Assembly (NCBI RefSeq): GCF_019668485.1
Contig: NZ_AP024619.1
Coordinates: forward strand, 2,144,001 to 2,208,000
Reading direction: 5' to 3'
Source of the DNA: Gelria sp. Kuro-4
Lineage (GTDB): Bacteria > Bacillota > DTU030 > DUMP01
Length of the DNA stretch: 64,000 nt
Part shown: positions 43,892 to 53,595 of the stretch, one piece after another
Numbering within the stretch: position 1 is the first letter of the stretch
Layout of the letters: the number at the start of each line of letters is the position of its first letter
Notes under the pieces: generated by a model
Database searches by the model: none
Seen by the model: the letters and a program-made list of their open reading frames with translations, nothing else
Told to the model about the DNA's origin: nothing
Position numbers and translations under genes: made by a program

Positions 43892-45469
43892 CTAAGCCTG
43901 CGGCCCGGCCTTTAATACTGCCGCCGGAACGGTGCCGAACTTCTCGACATTGGCGGCAAAGCGGGCCGCCAGAGCGCGGGCTGTCCGCGCGTAAGCCTCT
44001 TTATCCTCCCATGCCTCCTGCGGCCGCAGCACCTGCGCCGGGACACCGGGACAGCTTTGCGGTACCAAAACCTTGAAGATGGGGTCCGGGGTGCAGGGTA
44101 CATCGCGCAGTTGGCCGCTTACCGCCGCCCGCACCATGGCGCGGGTGTAGGCCAGGTTCATGCGCTGCCCCACCCCGTAGGAGCCGCCTGACCAGCCGGT
44201 GTTCACCAGGTAAACATCGGTACCGTGCCGGTCGATGCGCCGGCCCAATAGTTCTGCATACACCGTAGGCGCGAGCGGCAGGAAGGGCGCCCCGAAGCAG
44301 GTCGAAAAAGTGGCCTGAGGTTCGGTGACACCGCGCTCGGTACCCGCCAGTTTGCTGGTATAGCCGGAGATAAACTGATACATGGCCTGCTCGCGGGTGA
44401 GCCGGGCAATGGGCGGCAACACCCCAAAGGCATCGGCCGTGAGGAAGATTATCGTGCGCGGGACGCCTCCCGTACCGCTCAGCACCGCGCCGGGGATGTG
44501 ATCCAGGGGGTACGCCGCGCGCGTATTCTCAGTAAGGCTGTCGTCGGCGTAGTCCGGCAGGCGTGTCGCCGGATCCAGCACAACGTTTTCCAGAACTGTC
44601 CCAAAGCGGATGGCCCCCCAGATTTGCGGCTCGTGCTCTTGGGAGAGCCGGATGCACTTGGCATAGCAGCCGCCTTCAAAATTAAAGATGCCCTCGTCAG
44701 ACCAGCCGTGCTCATCGTCGCCGATGAGGAAGCGCTGCGGGTCGGCGGAGAGGGTGGTCTTACCGGTGCCCGAGAGGCCGAAAAACAGGGCTACGTCGCC
44801 GTCTTCGCCCTGGTTGGCGGAGCAGTGCATGGAAAGGACACCCTTAAGGGGCAGCAGGTAGTTCATGACGGTAAAGACGGATTTCTTGATCTCCCCGGCG
44901 TAAGAGGTGCCGCCGATGAGCACCAGCCGCCGCTCAAAATCGAGCACAATGAAGGCCTCGGAGTTGGTCCCGTCCAGCGCCGGGTCGGCCTTGAACCCGG
45001 GGGCCGCAATGATGGTGAAGCCGGGCTCGTGGGCCTTTAGTTCCTCCGCCGTGGGCCGCCGGAACAGCTGGTGCGCGAAGAGGTTTTGCCAGGCCAGCTC
45101 GTTCACCACGCGGATGGGCAGCCGGTAGCGTGGGTCGGCGCCGGCGAAACCATCGAAGATGAAGAGCTCGCGCTGCTCGAGGTAAGCCAGGAGGCGCCGG
45201 TAGAGCCGCTCAAACCGCTCCGGCTCAAAAGGGGCGTTGTTTCCCCACCAGATGCGGTCGTGCAGTGCCGGCCTGTCCACTACGAACTTGTCGTGGGGTG
45301 AACGTCCGGTGTATTTGCCGGTGGCGACGCGCAAGGCACCGCCGGCGGTGAGCACGCCTTCGCCCCGGTGCAGGGCCGCCTCCACCAGTTCCGCCACGGA
45401 AAGGTTGCGGTGGACCTGCCCCGGGTGGTTGAGGCCCAGGTCTGCCAGCCCGTAGTCGGATTTATGCAT
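43892..45469 (-). CDS. pckA: Phosphoenolpyruvate carboxykinase (ATP)
   Basis: Interconverts oxaloacetate and PEP with ATP/ADP. The 525 residues are normal for the ATP-dependent type: P-loop [13 protein letters not shown], metal/substrate segment [22 protein letters not shown], and the MHCSANQG and [12 protein letters not shown] segments. Start ATG 45469 gives the standard N-terminus. It is monocistronic with its own terminator. With malic enzyme and pyruvate kinase in this window it forms the C3/C4 node. Confidence 0.97.
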
Positions 45470-45486
45470 CTGAACCGCCCTTTCTT

Positions 45487-45499
45487 GTATATTGTATAC
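45487..45499 (-). promoter_or_regulatory. Palindrome GTATA-N3-TATAC in the pckA promoter region
   Basis: A 5-bp inverted repeat with 3-bp centre overlaps the TACAAT-like -10 sequence 20-30 bp upstream of the pckA start codon. It could be an operator. The -35 region is not clear. Confidence 0.4.
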
Positions 45500-45572
45500 T
45501 TTAGAACCTCCAATAAAACTCCAATTAGGATTCGCCAGCCGGGCTGGAATTCCTGCTTTCTTTGTTACTGTT

Positions 45573-46133
45573 TTATTCCACACCTTCCCCCGACAGCGCC
45601 TGTAGAGCCGCTTCATAAGCCGCCAGGTCGGCCGCCGAGTAAAGCACCAGCCGCACCTCGGCAAAAGCTCCCGGGTACCCGTCTAAAAAGTCGCGCACAG
45701 CACCCAGAGCGACGGCCGCTGCCCGGCCGATGGGAAAACGGTAGGCGCCGGTGCTAATCGAAGGAAAGGCGATTGACCTCAGGCCCTTCTCCCGGGCCAG
45801 GCGCAAGCTGTTGGTGTAAGCCTGGCGCAGCAGCTCCGCCTCGCCCCGCTCGCCGCCGTACCAGACCGGACCTACCGTGTGTATGACGTAACGGGCCGGG
45901 AGGTTGCCGCCCGTCGTGATGACAGCCTGCCCGGTGGGGCAGCCGCCCTGCCGGGCGCGGATGGCGAGGCACTCTTCATGCAGCTTGGGTCCCGCTGCGC
46001 GGTGAATAGCCCCGTCCACGCCCCCGCCGCCCAAAAGACTGCTGTTGGCGGCGTTGACAATGGCGTCCGTCTCCTGCCGCGTGATATCCCCCTGTACCAG
46101 CAGCACCCGCGTGCCGCTCCATGTTACCTCCAT
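45573..46133 (-). CDS. Macro-domain protein (O-acetyl-ADP-ribose deacetylase type)
   Basis: A 186-residue single macro domain of the MacroD/YmdB type. [39 protein letters not shown] is the family signature with the adenine- and ribose-binding loops, and [14 protein letters not shown] is the second loop. It would remove ADP-ribose from proteins or hydrolyse O-acetyl-ADP-ribose. No sirtuin or ADP-ribosyltransferase partner is nearby. It starts 19 bp after the GNAT gene, with GAAAGGAG at its ribosome binding site. Confidence 0.93.
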
Positions 46134-46638: not shown

Positions 46639-47793
46639 TTAAGACCGGCCCGCCGCGGCCTTAACCGCTCGGGCCACCGCCGGCGCCACCCGGGGATCGA
46701 AGGGATCAGGCAGGCAGTGTTCTGCGTTCAGCTCTCCCCCCACCAGGCCCGCCAGCGCCCGGGCCGCAGCGATTTTCATTTCTTCTGTTATCTGCGGGGC
46801 GCGCGCATCCAGCGCTCCTCGAAACACGCCGGGAAAGGCCAGCACGTTGTTGACCTGGTTGGGAAAATCGGAGCGCCCGGTGCCCACCACGGCAGCGCCG
46901 GCCGCCTTGGCTTCTTCCGGCCAGATCTCCGGTACCGGGTTGGCCATGGCGAACACCACCGCCCGGGCCGCCATGGTACGCACCATGTCCGCCGTGAGGA
47001 CCCCGGGTGCCGACACGCCGATGAACACATCGCGCCCGCGCACGGCCCGGCTTAAGTCCCCGCGCACGCACTCCTTATTGGTCATCGCTGCCAGCTCTTC
47101 TTTAATGCCGCTGTTGCCCGGCCGGCCTGGATAGAGGGCACCGGCGCGGTCGCAAAGGATCACATCGCCGACCCCCACCCGCTTGAGCAGCCGCGCAATA
47201 GCCACCCCGGCGGCGCCGGCACCGTTTATCACCACGCTCGCCTCGGCCAGGCTCTTTTCCACCACCTGCAGGGCATTGAGCAGGCCGGCCGCAACGACGA
47301 TGGCCGTGCCGTGCTGGTCGTCGTGGAAAACCGGGATGGGAAGCTCGGCTTTGAGCCGCTCCTCAATGGTAAAGCAGCGCGGCGCGCTGATGTCCTCCAG
47401 GTTGATGCCGCCAAAGGTGGGAGCGATCAGTTTTACCGTCTCCACGATGGCGTTCACGTCCTTGGTGGCGAGGCACAGGGGAAAAGCGTCCACGCCGGCA
47501 AAGGCCTTAAAGAGTACAGCCTTCCCTTCCATCACCGGCAGGGCCGCCTCCGGGCCGATGTCCCCCAGTCCCAGCACGGCGCTGCCGTCGGTTACTATCG
47601 CCACCAGGTTGCCGCGCGCTGTGTACGTGTAAACCTCCTCCGGGCGGGTGGCGATAACCCGGCAGGGTTCGGCTACGCCCGGTGTATAGGCTAGGCTGAG
47701 GTCCGCCCGTGTCCTCAGCGGGACCTTGCTTTCCACGCTGATCTTGCCCTGCCTTTCCCGGTGCAAAGCCAGGGCCGCTTCCTGCACATCCAT
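46639..47793 (-). CDS. NAD(P)-dependent malic enzyme, short bacterial form
   Basis: Oxidative decarboxylation of malate to pyruvate. The 384 residues contain the N-terminal malic domain (SLAYTPGVAEPCR with the catalytic Tyr, NLVAIVTDGSAVLGLGDIGP, and the metal-binding FHDDQHGTAIV) and the NAD-binding domain (INGAGAAGVAIARLL). It lacks the C-terminal phosphotransacetylase-like domain of MaeB. First gene of a probable malic enzyme-GNAT-macro unit. Confidence 0.95.
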   Translation of the reverse strand: MDVQEAALALHRERQGKISVESKVPLRTRADLSLAYTPGVAEPCRVIATRPEEVYTYTARGNLVAIVTDGSAVLGLGDIGPEAALPVMEGKAVLFKAFAGVDAFPLCLATKDVNAIVETVKLIAPTFGGINLEDISAPRCFTIEERLKAELPIPVFHDDQHGTAIVVAAGLLNALQVVEKSLAEASVVINGAGAAGVAIARLLKRVGVGDVILCDRAGALYPGRPGNSGIKEELAAMTNKECVRGDLSRAVRGRDVFIGVSAPGVLTADMVRTMAARAVVFAMANPVPEIWPEEAKAAGAAVVGTGRSDFPNQVNNVLAFPGVFRGALDARAPQITEEMKIAAARALAGLVGGELNAEHCLPDPFDPRVAPAVARAVKAAAGRS

Positions 47794-47947: not shown

Positions 47948-47980
47948 TATGCTCAGAGAAAATGCCTGGAGGTGAAGCGC

Positions 47981-49471
47981 GTGCCTTGGAACCTGACCCA
48001 TCCCGACCTGGCACCACTCGCCCGCTTTTTTGCCCCGACCAACCTTACGGTGGCAGCGGTTCCCCTCAGTGAAACGTACCGCGGCAAGGAGCCGTATGTT
48101 GTCTACGCTCACCTGCCCCAGCCCCTTGCCGGCCCGGTGGTGGCGCTGCTGCGCGGTGGGCCGAAAGCCAGTGAAATCCTGCACTTTTTGGCTCACCTGG
48201 GCCTCAATGTCCTGGAGCTCTGGCACATCAGGAGCCTGCCCGAGAAGGATGACCTCTTTTACAGCGAACTGGTACCCGAAGCGCTGGAGATGTTCAGCGA
48301 GGTGAAGGTGCGTTCCTTCCCGCCCCAGCCGCTGGAAAGACTGCTGTCCCAGCAGCCCGCCGGATTGGTGGTTGCGGGGCGGCCCCGGCGCGAAGAGGCC
48401 CGGGCCCGCTTCTGCGCGCGCCTCGCCAGCCTGCCGGTGAACGTGGCGGTGGTGGATATTCAAGAGCCTCTGCCGGATTTCAGCGGCAGCGAAGGCCCGG
48501 TGACCCTGCAGCACCCCCCGATCCCGGTGTTCCCCTGGAATTCCTTCCCGCTTTCCCAACTCCTCAGGCGCAAACGCAGCCAGGGACTTAAAGTGGCAGC
48601 CGCCCTGCCCACCCTAAACGAAGAAGCCACCGTGGCCAAGGCGCTCAGCGCCGCCCTGGAGGTGAAGGCGCAGGGGCTCCTCGATGAGGTGTTCGTGGTG
48701 GATTCGGCGTCCACCGACCGCACCGCAGAGATAGCCACCGGGCTGGGCGTGCCGGTGTACCAGGCGGCAGGAGTGGGGCCGGAGCTGCCGCCCGCGCGCG
48801 GGAAGGGCGAAAACCTCTACAAGTCCCTTTTTCTTACCGACGCCGATATCATCCTCTGGGTAGACACAGATATCGAAACCATCACCCCCAGTTTCTTCAC
48901 CGCTCCCTTGGCACCCCTTTTCGCCGGTCCCGGGATTCAACTGGTCAAGGGCTTCTTCAAACGGCCGGTGCGCGTTACCGAGCAGGGCACGGCCTTAGGC
49001 GGCGGCCGCGTCACCGAGCTTTTGGTCAAACCCTTTCTAAACCTCCACTACCCCGGCCTGGCCAGCCTGGTGCAGCCGCTTTCCGGAGTAACCGCCATCC
49101 GGCGCCGGGCGGCAGAAGAGTTCTTCTTCCCCGATCACTACGGCGTGGAGATCGCCCTGCTGCTCCAAGCCTACCGCCGCTGGGGCCCGCAGGCGCTGGC
49201 CCAGGTGGATGTGGGGGAGGTCATCCACAAGTCCAAGAGCCTTGAGGGGCTTACCGAGATGTCCTTTCAAATCCTCCAAACCGTACGCGACCTGGACGCC
49301 GTCCCTACACCCGGCCGTCGCCAGGACCTTTTTCTGCGGGCTTACGATGAAGAGCGCAGCGTCACCCTGGTGGCCAAGGCCCTGCCCATCTCCTGGCGGC
49401 CGCCGAAAAGCGCGCTGGGGGCCGCGCTTGACCGGGGATTGAGCGCGGATGGTGTCCTGGGAGCTTCCTAG
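47981..49471 (+). CDS. Glucosyl-3-phosphoglycerate synthase-like glycosyltransferase with N-terminal extra domain
   Basis: A 496-residue protein. Residues ~204-495 match GT81 (GpgS/MpgS) enzymes: ALPTLNEE, VVDSASTDRTAEIA, ARGKGENLYKSL, the metal site WVDTDIETI, VKGFFKRP, GGGRVTELLVKPFLNLHYPG, QPLSGVTAIRR and YGVEIALLLQA. These make glucosyl- or mannosyl-3-phosphoglycerate, precursors of compatible solutes or glycolipids. Residues 1-200 are an alpha/beta domain I do not recognise. The GTG at 47981 follows GGAGGTG by 6 nt; a GTG at 47972 overlaps that site. No cognate phosphatase gene is adjacent. Confidence 0.85.
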   Translation: MPWNLTHPDLAPLARFFAPTNLTVAAVPLSETYRGKEPYVVYAHLPQPLAGPVVALLRGGPKASEILHFLAHLGLNVLELWHIRSLPEKDDLFYSELVPEALEMFSEVKVRSFPPQPLERLLSQQPAGLVVAGRPRREEARARFCARLASLPVNVAVVDIQEPLPDFSGSEGPVTLQHPPIPVFPWNSFPLSQLLRRKRSQGLKVAAALPTLNEEATVAKALSAALEVKAQGLLDEVFVVDSASTDRTAEIATGLGVPVYQAAGVGPELPPARGKGENLYKSLFLTDADIILWVDTDIETITPSFFTAPLAPLFAGPGIQLVKGFFKRPVRVTEQGTALGGGRVTELLVKPFLNLHYPGLASLVQPLSGVTAIRRRAAEEFFFPDHYGVEIALLLQAYRRWGPQALAQVDVGEVIHKSKSLEGLTEMSFQILQTVRDLDAVPTPGRRQDLFLRAYDEERSVTLVAKALPISWRPPKSALGAALDRGLSADGVLGAS

Positions 49472-49517
49472 TTCCGCGTGAAGCCGCTGTTCACTGGATA
49501 AAAACAGGTAAGGACGA

Positions 49518-49547
49518 TTGACAGTACCGGACGGACTCGGCTAGAAT
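49518..49547 (+). promoter_or_regulatory. SigA-type promoter of the riboswitch operon
   Basis: -35 TTGACA (49518-49523, consensus), 18-bp spacer, -10 TAGAAT (49542-49547). Transcription should start at ~49554, only a few bases before the riboswitch P1 stem. Confidence 0.85.
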
Positions 49548-49557
49548 GAGAACCATA

Positions 49558-49667
49558 TTAGGAGTGTACCTAGGGTTCCGCGCCGTCAGGCGGCCGCGAC
49601 CGAGCGGTACAAACCAGGCTGGGCCTGGTACACCGTGGGTGGAAAATACCCGAGCGGAAAGTCCTAA
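49558..49667 (+). ncRNA. ykkC-class riboswitch aptamer (ppGpp-type most likely; guanidine-I or PRPP-type possible)
   Basis: The conserved core of the ykkC family is present: GUGUACCUAGGGUUCCG (49564-49580), a P2 hairpin, GACCGAGCGGUACA (~49599-49612), a P3 hairpin (ACCAGGC/GCCUGGU) and UACACCGUGGG with GGAAAA and ACCCGAGCGG (to 49657). P1 is closed by UUAGGA (49558-49563) pairing with UCCUAA (49662-49667). From memory, the GUGUACCUAGGG, AGCGGUACA and UACACCGUGGG details resemble the Thermoanaerobacter ppGpp riboswitch (subtype 2a) more than guanidine-I, which has GGUCCGAGAG. The ligand is therefore a proposal. It precedes a membrane transporter gene. Confidence 0.88.
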
Positions 49668-49700
49668 GCGATGCTTAGTTTGCCGCTCGGGTTTTATTTT
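49649..49700 (+). terminator. Riboswitch-controlled intrinsic terminator
   Basis: CCCGAGCGG (49649-49657) pairs with CCGCTCGGG (49683-49691), with an inner stem CTAAGC/GCTTAG (49664-49669, 49673-49678), followed by TTTTATTTT. The left side uses aptamer bases, including the 3' strand of P1, so aptamer and terminator cannot coexist: ligand binding should allow read-through (ON switch). Confidence 0.9.
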
Positions 49701-49798
49701 CAGCCCAGGCAGGGGGGTGAACGTCAAAGGCTTCTTCATTAATCGCAGGGGGAAAGCCCCATCCACCAACGCCGAGTACAAAGAAAGGAGAAACCCGT

Positions 49799-50989
49799 AT
49801 GCAACTCACCCCCATCTTGGCCTTAAGTATTGTTCTTACCATCTTCGCCGTCGGTGACGTGGTAGCCATCAAAACTAAAGCCATCCTCTCTATGCTCTTC
49901 GTCAGTTCCGTCCTCCTCCTCCTCGGTTACTGGTCCGGTATCCCGGGCAACCTGCTGCCCCAATCGCAGCTGGTGGGCATCGGCAGCGTCCTGGTAGGCC
50001 TGCTCATCACCCACATGGGCACCTTGATGAAGGTGCGCGATCTCCTGCAGCAGTGGAAAACCGTCCTCATCGCCGCCGGTGCCGTGGCCGGCATCGGTAT
50101 CTTTGTCTTTCTCGTCGGTTCGCCGCTTTTCGGCCGCAACGTGGCTGTGGTCGCCGCGCCCCCCATCTCCGGCGGCGTGGTGGCAGCGCTCATCATGTCT
50201 GAGGCGGCGAAGGCCAAAGGGTTTGCCGACCTCTCCCTCCTCGCCACCATGCTCCTGGTCGCCCAGGGTTTCATCGGTTACCCCTTAAGTTCAATCCTGC
50301 TGACGCGCGAAGCGCGGCGCATTGTGTCGCAGCCCGAACTGGTGCGCGTCGCACAGGAAACAGCCGTCGGTGCCGAGGGCGCGGTGGACAAAGGCGCCTT
50401 CGGGTTCCGCCTCCCCCAGATTCCCAAAGAGTACCAGACAAACTTCGTGCTCTTGGCCAAGCTCTCCCTGGTGGCCTATGCCGCGGTGCTAATCGCCGGA
50501 CTCTTCAACAACGTCATTCATCCCCTGGTCGTCAGCCTCGTCGTTGGTATCATCGCCCGCGAAATCGGGCTTCTCGAAGACAACATCTTTGAAAAGGCGA
50601 ACGGCCTGGGCCTGGCCATGGCCGGGCTCTTGGCGGTGGTCTTCGGCAACCTGGCCTCGGCCACGCCCGCCATGGTGACCAAGCTGCTCGCCCCCCTTGC
50701 AGGCACCTTGGTTTTAGGCGTCATCGGCATCGGTCTCTTCTCTTTTGTCCTGGGGCACCTCCTCGGCTATTCCTTTGAGATGGCCACGACCATCGGCCTG
50801 ACCGCTCTCTACGGTTTCCCGGGCACGTATATCCTTTCCCACGAGGCAGCCAAGGCCGTGGCCCAAAATGAGGAGGAAGAGCAGGCCATCCTGCACCACA
50901 TCCTGCCGAAGATGCTGGTGGCCGGCTTCGTTACCGTCACCATCAGCTCCGTGATCCTCGCCGGCATCTTCGCCAAACTCCTCGTTTAA
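49799..50989 (+). CDS. Polytopic membrane protein, putative transporter (family not recognised)
   Basis: A 396-residue protein with about ten membrane helices in two halves around a hydrophilic loop at ~177-216 (REARRIVSQPEL...LPQIPKEYQ). The segments AAPPISGGVVAALIMSEAA and FGNLASATPAMVTKLLAPLAG, rich in small residues, lie at similar places in the two halves, as in inverted-repeat carriers of the GltS/2-hydroxycarboxylate type; I could not confirm a family. Start ATG has AAAGGAG 8 nt upstream. It is under riboswitch control and followed by an amidohydrolase gene, so uptake of the hydrolase's substrate (a dipeptide or amide) is a reasonable guess. Confidence 0.75.
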   Translation: MQLTPILALSIVLTIFAVGDVVAIKTKAILSMLFVSSVLLLLGYWSGIPGNLLPQSQLVGIGSVLVGLLITHMGTLMKVRDLLQQWKTVLIAAGAVAGIGIFVFLVGSPLFGRNVAVVAAPPISGGVVAALIMSEAAKAKGFADLSLLATMLLVAQGFIGYPLSSILLTREARRIVSQPELVRVAQETAVGAEGAVDKGAFGFRLPQIPKEYQTNFVLLAKLSLVAYAAVLIAGLFNNVIHPLVVSLVVGIIAREIGLLEDNIFEKANGLGLAMAGLLAVVFGNLASATPAMVTKLLAPLAGTLVLGVIGIGLFSFVLGHLLGYSFEMATTIGLTALYGFPGTYILSHEAAKAVAQNEEEEQAILHHILPKMLVAGFVTVTISSVILAGIFAKLLV

Positions 50990-51127
50990 CGCGCACCGCG
51001 CCGTTCTCGCATCATTTGTCTCCACCGTGCCCGGCCCGGGGCACAGCCTGGAGCGCCGGCCGCGCCGGCAAAAAGCGCCCGGACCGCGGCGCGCCGGCAT
51101 ACTTCTACTGAGAAGGGAGAAACCGCT

Positions 51128-52318
51128 ATGCAACTGGTACTAAAAGGCAGCCGGCTTATCGACGGCACCGGGCGTCAGCCGATTGCCGATGCCACCCTGG
51201 TCATTGAAGACAAGGTCGTCACAGCCGTAGGCGGGCCGGAGGTGCCCTACGCGGCGGACGCCGAGGTGCTGGAGCTTCCCGGCTGCACCATCCTCCCCGG
51301 CTTCATCGACGCCCATGTGCATCTCACCATGCCGCCGGTGGGAGATTCCTTCAAAGTAATCACCAGCGAGTCCGACGCCATGACCGCCCTCAGGGCGGCG
51401 ACCCACGCCCAAGAAACCCTCGCCAACGGTGTCACCACCGTGCGCGACATGGGCGGCAAAAACTATGTCGACCTGGCCCTGCGCGACGCCATCGCCGGCG
51501 GCATGGTCCCCGGGCCGCGCATGCTGGCCTCCGGCCGCGCGGTGGTTATGACGGGCGGTCACGGCTGGCCCACGGCGCGCGAGGCCGACGGCCCGGACGA
51601 GGTGCGCAAGGCCGTGCGCGAACAGCTCAAGGCCGGCGCAGACGTGATCAAGCTCATGGCCACAGGCGGCGTCATGACCCCCGGCGTGGAACCGGGGTCC
51701 CCGCAGCTCACCTACGAGGAACTCAAGGCCGGCGTCGCAGAGGCCAACAAGGCCGGCCGCCGCACCGCCAGCCACGCCCAGGGCACCACCGGCATCAAAA
51801 ACGCCGTCCTGGCCGGGATCACCTCCATCGAGCACGGCATCTTCCTCAGCGATGAGGTCATCGAGCTCATGCTGGAGCACGGCACCTACCTGGTGCCCAC
51901 CCTGGTGGCGCCTTACTGGATTGTGAAGAAAGGGCGCGCGGCCGGGATCCCCGACTACGCCGTAAAAAAATCCGAGGACGTCATCGAAGCCCACCTGGCC
52001 AGCTTCCGTAAGGCGCTGGCCGCCGGCGTGAAGATCGCCTTCGGCACCGATGCCGGCACGCCCTTTAACGAGCACGGCGCCAACACCTTTGAGCTTGAGC
52101 TCCTGGTGGAGAACGGCATGACCCCGCTCCAGGCCCTGGAGGCGGGGACGCGCGTCAGCGCCGAGCTCCTCGGCATCGAGGACAAGGTGGGCACGCTGGA
52201 AGCAGGTAAGCTGGCCGACGTGGTCGTCGTCGCCGGTGACCCCCTGGCCGACATCAAGGCCGTGCGCAACGTGCAGGTGGTTGTTAAGGAGGGCCGAATC
52301 GTAAAAGCAAAGAACTAG
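51128..52318 (+). CDS. Metal-dependent amidohydrolase (imidazolonepropionase / dipeptidase-like)
   Basis: A 396-residue amidohydrolase-superfamily enzyme. The metal ligands are HVH in DAHVHLTMP, a likely carboxylated Lys in DVIKLMATGG, His in TASHAQGTTG, His in SIEHGIF, and Asp in AFGTDAGTP. The sequence resembles members characterised as prolidase-like dipeptidases and N-acyl-amino-acid hydrolases. It has its own GAAGGGAG site, lies 138 bp after the transporter gene and ends before a hairpin, so both share the riboswitch-controlled transcript. The exact substrate is unknown. Confidence 0.88.
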   Translation: MQLVLKGSRLIDGTGRQPIADATLVIEDKVVTAVGGPEVPYAADAEVLELPGCTILPGFIDAHVHLTMPPVGDSFKVITSESDAMTALRAATHAQETLANGVTTVRDMGGKNYVDLALRDAIAGGMVPGPRMLASGRAVVMTGGHGWPTAREADGPDEVRKAVREQLKAGADVIKLMATGGVMTPGVEPGSPQLTYEELKAGVAEANKAGRRTASHAQGTTGIKNAVLAGITSIEHGIFLSDEVIELMLEHGTYLVPTLVAPYWIVKKGRAAGIPDYAVKKSEDVIEAHLASFRKALAAGVKIAFGTDAGTPFNEHGANTFELELLVENGMTPLQALEAGTRVSAELLGIEDKVGTLEAGKLADVVVVAGDPLADIKAVRNVQVVVKEGRIVKAKN

Positions 52319-52428: not shown

Positions 52429-53595
52429 TTATTTCTTGACAAACTCAGCCGCCTGCCGGCCGGCGATGCGGCCGAAGACCACGATGTCCGCCACGGCGTT
52501 ACCGCCCAGCCGGTTGGCGCCGTGGATGCCGCCCGTCACCTCGCCGGCGGCGTAAAGGCCGGGGATGGGCTGGCCGGCCTTGTTCAGAACCTCGGCCCGG
52601 GTGTTAATGGCCAGGCCGCCCATGGTGTGGTGCACGGCCGGCGTCACTTCCACCGCGTAAAAAGGTGCCTTCGCAAGCTTGCGCTGGAGGTGCTGGCGGC
52701 CGAAATCGCTGTCTTTACCGGCAGCGACAAACCCGTTATACCGCTTTACGGTTTCTGTCAGCCTGCCGGCCGGAATGCTCAACTTGGCAGCGAGCTCGTC
52801 CAGGGTGTCGGCCTCGGTGAGGAGATTTAACCGGGCGTACTCTTCGATTGCCTTGAGGTTTTCCCGCACGCCCTGGTCGAAGAGCAGGAAGGCGGTGCCC
52901 TTCTCCTGGTCCAAAATAGCCTTAGAGACCACGTCCCGCGTCTGCAGCTCGTCGATGAAACGGTCGCCCTTATGGTTGACCAGAATGGCACCCGTGCCGC
53001 GCACGGCCTCCGTGATCATCAGACCCTTATGCGGCACTACGGTCGGGTGCGTCTGGATGTTCTCCATCTGTACCGTGGCCGCACCTACGGCCGTAGCCAT
53101 CTTAATCCCGTCTCCCGTGGCACCCGGGTGGTTGGTGGTGTCAAACCCCTTGAGGGCCGGGTTGTACTGAGCCACCATCTCCGGGTTGGCACCGAAACCG
53201 CCGGTGGCCACAATGACAGCCTTGGCCCTGACGACGAGGTCGCCCTTTTCCTTGCTGGCCGCTTTCACTCCGGTTACGCGGCCGTTCCCGTCGGTGGTGA
53301 TCTCTGTGACCTTGGTGTCAGTAAAGATCTCAATGCCCTGGTCCTTTGCCGCCTTCTCCAGGGTCTTAACGATCACCGGGCCCACAGCGCCGCCGCCTTC
53401 CGGCGCATGGGTGCGCGGGTTGGTTGCTCCGCCGGCGATCACCACATGCACCAGGTTGGCGCCCATGCCGTTTAGCCATTCCAGGGTGTTATTGGCGTTG
53501 TCCACCAGGGTGCGCACCAGCTCTGGAATGTTCTGGTTCTTGCCGCCTTCCTTTCTTTCGAAACCCGTCTCCGGGCCAAGGATACCCAGCGCCAA
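52429..53595 (-). pseudogene. Flavocytochrome c / fumarate reductase-type flavoprotein, 5' truncated
   Basis: 388 codons match the middle and C-terminal parts of FAD-dependent fumarate reductase-like flavoproteins: NIPELVRTLVDNANNTLEWL, GGGAVGPVIVKTLEKAA, AVIVATGGFGANPEM, HPGATGDGIKMA, the active-site HHTMGGLAINTRAEVL and the FAD-binding end GIHGANRLGGNAVADIVVFGR. The N-terminal ~120 residues with the GxGxxG dinucleotide-binding motif are absent: similarity begins at about residue 15, behind a weak TTG start, and the upstream 190 bp on this strand do not encode the missing part in any frame that I can see. Without it FAD cannot be held normally, so the gene is probably inactive. Several 'decayed reductase' substrates are possible (fumarate, urocanate, acrylate-type). 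Confidence 0.78.

Follow-up and report, generated by a model that had tools for sequence, protein, structure and literature searches.

What a leader RNA senses, and what its ligand says about the genes behind it, is the question raised by a locus in the window (the whole stretch of 64,000 nucleotides of Gelria sp. Kuro-4 DNA analysed here) in which a ykkC-like leader precedes a transporter of unnamed family and an amidohydrolase.

Organization of the leader

The promoter, the aptamer with its outer helix, and the terminator were located as follows.

49518–49547 (+): sigma-70-type promoter, with TTGACA at 49518–49523, an 18-nt spacer and TAGAAT at 49542–49547, matching 11 of 12 bases
49556–49670 (+): ykkC aptamer of subtype 2a (ppGpp type), from covariance models and alignment
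49558–49563 (+): 5' strand of helix P0, UUAGGA, from folding and P0 covariation across 29 2a RNAs
49662–49667 (+): 3' strand of helix P0, UCCUAA, from folding
49648–49700 (+): intrinsic terminator, outer stem 49648–49657/49683–49692 and inner stem 49664–49669/49673–49678
49692–49700 (+): run after the terminator stem, TTTTATTTT

The promoter, which the original prediction had read as a consensus one, was the sole sigma-70-type match within 49400–51200, and TTGACA and TAGAAT likewise lay at the equivalent place in two congeners (G006 and G007). The folding energy of the segment 49546–49700 was 4.5 sd below that of dinucleotide shuffles. When the aptamer-only transcript was folded, 49558–49563/49662–49667 was the minimum-energy outer helix, and the terminator formed once the downstream sequence was included in the fold. 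The two structures were mutually exclusive in folding, the terminator sharing four bases with the P0 3' strand and taking the 3' strand of P3. Two exclusive structures had been predicted here, and folding reproduced both, with two corrections: the helix then called P1 is the outer helix termed P0 in the crystal-structure nomenclature (PMC6031431), and the start of the terminator had been placed one base off. Counterparts of the terminator were present in three relatives.

The leader is supported as an ON switch, in which ligand binding would block the terminator, because the folds are exclusive here and ON behaviour has been published for 2a and 2b ykkC RNAs (PMC6031431). The ON logic had been proposed from the start, and the persistence of the exclusive folds in relatives argues for it. 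When the full transcript was folded to minimum energy, the terminator was favoured by about 14 kcal/mol; the switching must therefore be kinetic, decided during transcription.

Class of the aptamer

At the gathering threshold, the Rfam scan across the window returned tRNA alone and no ykkC match. In a permissive scan RF00442 (Guanidine-I), the sole ykkC model in Rfam, matched over its full length (1–107) at 49559–49658 with 39.0 bits (E = 1.1e-5 over 401 bases) against a cut-off of 63 bits, a shortfall that is expected because the RNA is a subtype-2 variant. The proposed Rfam check thus gave a significant ykkC match, though one under the gathering score, and the claim of a ykkC-class RNA with a full core held both in this match and with the 2a model described below.

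For a comparison of subtypes, RF00442 was used to gather ykkC RNAs across 398 genomes of the phylum, and these RNAs, retrieved together with the genes behind them, were sorted according to gene context. Model R1 (2a) was built on seven RNAs that precede ilvE, livK-like, sodium:neurotransmitter symporter and ABC genes, and model R2 (2b) on 22 RNAs, mostly before genes of the purine-synthesis and nucleobase-permease type, with the genes called by reading N-termini; both training sets excluded every transporter-linked RNA. The window RNA scored 80.7 bits with R1 (E about 1e-21) against 46.3 bits with R2, a difference of +34, and the same difference was +34, +36 and +25 bits for its relatives L017, L019 and L074. 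RNAs recovered afterwards with R1 and kept out of the training, before ilvE, ilvD (PF00920), ilvB (TPP enzyme), SNF symporter, livK-type and ABC genes gave +17 to +35 bits for 2a, and the window RNA lay inside the range of the held-out RNAs before ilv genes. All 12 untrained 2b-type RNAs (L009, L071, L090, L091, L093, L108, L110, L130, L137, L160, L214 and L217) had negative differences, favouring 2b. Because of these scores, positive for held-out 2a RNAs and negative for held-out 2b RNAs, the assignment of the window RNA to the ppGpp type is well supported by the comparison of 2a, 2b and guanidine-I sequence models.

Within 2a the window RNA was an outlier, its score comparing with 89–119 bits for most. 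It carries one extra base in P1a, and a similar insertion was seen in RNAs before ilvE (G016/G062) and ilvB (G361), so that this base is compatible with the class. A new subvariant based on the extra P1a base in four transporter-linked RNAs was considered and rejected, as these ilvE and ilvB RNAs match the pattern.

The residues by which the subtypes are told apart were found at the following places, crystal positions having been mapped onto the window RNA by alignment.

49565–49570 (+): 5' strand of P1, pairing with 49606–49611, from fold and covariation
49605 (+): C at the equivalent of C49, which is A in guanidine-I and a pyrimidine in ppGpp and PRPP aptamers
49630–49635 (+): P2–P3 junction ACACCG, which should contain the equivalents of the ligand-contacting C75-A76-C77
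49637–49651 (+): P3 hairpin GGGU-GGAAAAU-ACCC, from fold and alignment
49653 (+): A at the equivalent of G96, which is G in PRPP aptamers and A, C or U, or absent, in ppGpp aptamers

The contexts were CCGAG-C-G around C49605 and ACCC-G-A-GCGG around A49653. Subtype 2 is told from guanidine-I by its pyrimidine at position 49; PRPP aptamers conserve G96, and ppGpp aptamers have A, C or U there or lack the base (PMC6031431, PMC7266159). P0 is carried by the PRPP aptamer and by its ppGpp-binding mutant (PMC6031431, PMC7266159). The window RNA combined the ykkC core and the P1/P1a/P1b/P2/P3 fold with a pyrimidine at 49, a base other than G at 96 and a P0 of 6 bp. Across 29 2a RNAs, in an alignment that was fitted to the model and so leans towards it, 96.3% of cells were paired and 17 of 32 pairs had two-sided changes, with slid controls far lower. 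Covariation extended over P0, P1, P1b and P2; P0 was paired in 100% of cells, three of its four modelled pairs having compensatory two-sided changes.

Other RNAs of the set differed at position 96. A 2a-type RNA before ilvB (L215, 1501–1621) reads ACCC-AGG-CGG, and its apparent G at the position-96 equivalent either breaks the A/C/U rule or reflects another register. Two ykkC RNAs of genome G063 that fall between the 2a and 2b models (L095, 98–220 (+), and L111, 1733–1850 (-)), with +13 and +17 bits for 2a, also have an apparent G at position 96; they precede an ABC permease-like gene and an M20 amidohydrolase.

A PRPP aptamer of subtype 2b, which would tie the operon to the supply of purines or ribose, would share the overall architecture, C49 and P0 with the window RNA, and the latter still obtained its 46.3 bits with the 2b model. 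That score is 34 bits worse than with 2a, however, and the window has A where G96 was invariant in the 22 aligned 2b RNAs. At this position the single change G96A is enough to convert the T. mathranii aptamer from PRPP specificity to ppGpp specificity (PMC6031431), and in a PRPP aptamer G96A shifts the specificity towards ppGpp about 40,000-fold (PMC6031431, PMC7266159). Purine genes are also absent nearby. Subtype 2b was rejected by the model comparison, and we consider PRPP a very improbable ligand.

Guanidine had been offered as an alternative ligand, in which case the transporter and the hydrolase would handle guanidine. Guanidine-I is the only Rfam family that was matched convincingly, and it shares the core sequence CUAGGGUUCCG and the P1/P1a/P3 fold with the window RNA. 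But the score of 39 bits is to be set against the gathering score and against 80–91 bits for the best guanidine-I RNAs in the phylum; the guanidine-contact position (46/49) has C and not A; the junction reads ACACCG and not GACACGG; an extra P0 is present; and the neighbours are peptidases rather than carboxylase or SMR exporter genes. This alternative, rejected because of the score, the residues and the gene context, is scarcely credible.

An aptamer of subtype 2c, or of some further specificity, would sense a nucleoside diphosphate or another nucleotide. Extended ends are also known in 2c (PMC5912903), and the window RNA departs from the typical 2a type; yet it keeps all the 2a key residues, whereas 2c shows more prominent binding-site changes (PMC5912903) and NUDIX/HAD gene contexts (PMC7266159). 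The gene context here does not fit, a nucleotide hydrolase being absent downstream, and no 2c RNA was identified in the ykkC set from the 398 genomes. Such a specificity appears unlikely.

The ppGpp type is thus the preferred one, as had been predicted, and C49, A96, P0 and the 34-bit preference for 2a over 2b support ppGpp as the probable ligand. With known ppGpp riboswitches the window RNA shares the P0-P1-P2-P3 architecture, the C49- and A96-type residues and the terminator-coupled ON logic. It differs from them in preceding an unnamed-family transporter and an amidohydrolase, in the extra P1a base, also found in a few 2a RNAs of the set, and in its 6-bp P0.

Conservation of the RNA

Both congeners have the same promoter, aptamer, terminator and transporter (87–88% identity), followed by the same amidohydrolase. 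In G056, which belongs to another family, a transporter 66% identical is preceded by a 2a RNA of 73.9 bits with its own terminator stem, and an M20 peptidase is the next gene after the transporter. P0 differs by compensatory changes, UUAGGA/UCCUAA in the window and UCAAGA/UCUUGA in G056. It might be supposed that the riboswitch is degenerate and has lost its response, given the P1a insertion and a score below that of other 2a RNAs. The helices, pocket bases and terminator are nevertheless shared by three congeneric species and by another family, the P0 changes are compensatory and the promoter is conserved within the genus, so that we hold a loss of response to be extremely unlikely.

The ykkC RNA was absent from most relatives of the transporter, including a paralogue of 46% identity in the window genome; control by ppGpp would therefore be lineage-specific. 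Rfam scans of 21 transporter neighbourhoods revealed no other regulator at the transporter genes, and a plasmid search with the leader DNA gave no match.

The same genome contains two further convincing 2a-type ykkC RNAs, one (L001) before a glutamate-synthase-like gene and one (L002) before a livK-like gene whose product resembles branched-chain amino-acid binding proteins, the gene names being given by inspection. Both contexts agree with what has been reported for 2a (PMC5912903). The genome gave a fourth match to Guanidine-I (L004, 25.7 bits), which lies over a long coding sequence of the opposite strand and was set aside as a chance match. A relA/spoT gene of full length (866.7 bits) is also present.

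In other genomes 2a-like RNAs precede oligopeptide-type ABC permeases and an M20 amidohydrolase (M20 assigned from sequence), and because of this the scavenging of peptides under a 2a-class RNA is probably not unique to the window locus.

The transporter, the amidohydrolase and the surrounding genes

49799–50989 (+): transporter, 396 aa, predicted CitS-like fold, from profile searches, AlphaFold2 and Foldseek
51128–52318 (+): amidohydrolase, 396 aa, dipeptidase/carboxypeptidase-like, from profile and structure-sequence matches and motifs

The transporter matched no Pfam or NCBIfam family. When 31 relatives were compared with Pfam, NCBIfam and PDB sequences, single weak matches alone were obtained, for example to DUF819; its plasmid relatives are annotated "hypothetical protein", one of them "DUF819 family protein". 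An AlphaFold2 model made with ten homologues was of moderate confidence (pLDDT 72, pTM 0.74), residues 1–53 being poorly predicted. For this moderate-confidence model the best Foldseek matches among solved structures were to the Na+/citrate symporter CitS (E 1.5e-4, TM about 0.5). The likeness to CitS, of the 2HCT family, is one of predicted fold; in contrast, identity is about 15%, no PDB, Pfam or NCBIfam sequence-profile match connects the two, and the transporter has peptidase neighbours. In the neighbourhoods examined, most transporter relatives were followed by at least one M20 peptidase or by the same amidohydrolase, and one by a gamma-glutamyltranspeptidase. What these enzymes have in common is that they hydrolyse dipeptides or amino acids that are N-acylated. 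A cation-coupled symporter of the elevator type, for a dipeptide, an N-acyl amino acid or a similar amide, is the probable identity of the transporter.

A second copy of the family lies in the same genome at G000:C1:2461081-2462271 (L031, L183); it is the paralogue of 46% identity, is followed by an M20-type peptidase and has no ykkC leader.

The amidohydrolase, separated from the transporter gene by 138 bases, matched 3MTW (Cc2672, an L-arginine carboxypeptidase, E 2e-80) and 2QS8 (Xaa-Pro dipeptidase, E 2e-78) over its full length. It has an Amidohydro_1 domain with the superfamily motifs HxH, K, H, H and D (metal ligands), and reached 386 bits against the NCBIfam Xaa-Pro dipeptidase family, below the cut-off of 500. 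We take it to be of the COG1228 type.

Other genes were observed around the locus.

47972–49471 (+): glucosyl-3-phosphoglycerate synthase-like gene upstream (NF010496, 268.6 bits against a cut-off of 262), extended at its N terminus by about 190 aa; both congeners have a homologue at this place
52429–53595 (-): flavocytochrome c/fumarate-reductase-like ORF, matched by profiles only from position 72 (TIGR01813) or 132 (NF005064)
43892–45664 and 46639–47793 (-): PEP carboxykinase (ATP)-like and malic enzyme-like genes, from inspected translations
45573–46133: macro-domain-like protein, from its inspected translation

An N-terminal FAD-binding part for the ORF at 52429–53595 was not readable in any frame just upstream, and this ORF is probably a truncated remnant.

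Proposed mechanism and biological meaning

We propose that a 2a ppGpp riboswitch in the leader turns on a two-gene transporter–amidohydrolase operon for amide or peptide scavenging at starvation, a model that we regard as highly probable and that starts from the aptamer class, its key residues, the exclusive folds, their conservation, the gene families and the relA/spoT gene. At low ppGpp the nascent leader would fold the 3' strands of P3 and P0 into the terminator, and transcription would halt before the transporter gene. When amino acids are exhausted, RelA/SpoT would make ppGpp, whose guanine would pair with the conserved C75 equivalent and whose 5' pyrophosphate would be held near P0. The bound aptamer, P0 included, would be stabilised, and with P0 and P3 held the terminator would be blocked, so that the transporter and the amidohydrolase would be made. 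The transporter would then import a dipeptide, an N-acyl amino acid or a similar amide, which the amidohydrolase would cleave to amino acids. Ligand binding, antitermination in the cell, co-transcription and the transport substrate of the operon are the parts of this model that we infer.

The operon probably serves to take up and cleave dipeptides or N-acyl amino acids, the presumed substrates, when starvation induces it. The original prediction of a starvation-induced scavenging operon is consistent with the conserved peptidase neighbours; the amidohydrolase gene lies beyond the interval it covered, and the substrate follows by inference. The transporter may represent an undescribed family of CitS-fold symporters for peptides or N-acyl amino acids, which is widespread next to hydrolases of the M20 and COG1228 types and which ppGpp, in this lineage, switches on directly via RNA; we give this proposal as much credence as its contrary.

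The riboswitch is of a known class, and the transporter family under its control is the less familiar part. The pairing of the two may be a new association for ppGpp riboswitches, which we do not claim as proven. A ppGpp switch would assign a physiological condition, amino-acid starvation, to a transporter family that is uncharacterised and has members in other phyla and on plasmids as well, and together with the conserved peptidase neighbours it would make the substrate of the transporter directly testable. If the proposal of a CitS-fold symporter family switched by ppGpp is true, ppGpp riboswitches would extend from amino-acid synthesis to the scavenging of amides and peptides by a secondary transporter.
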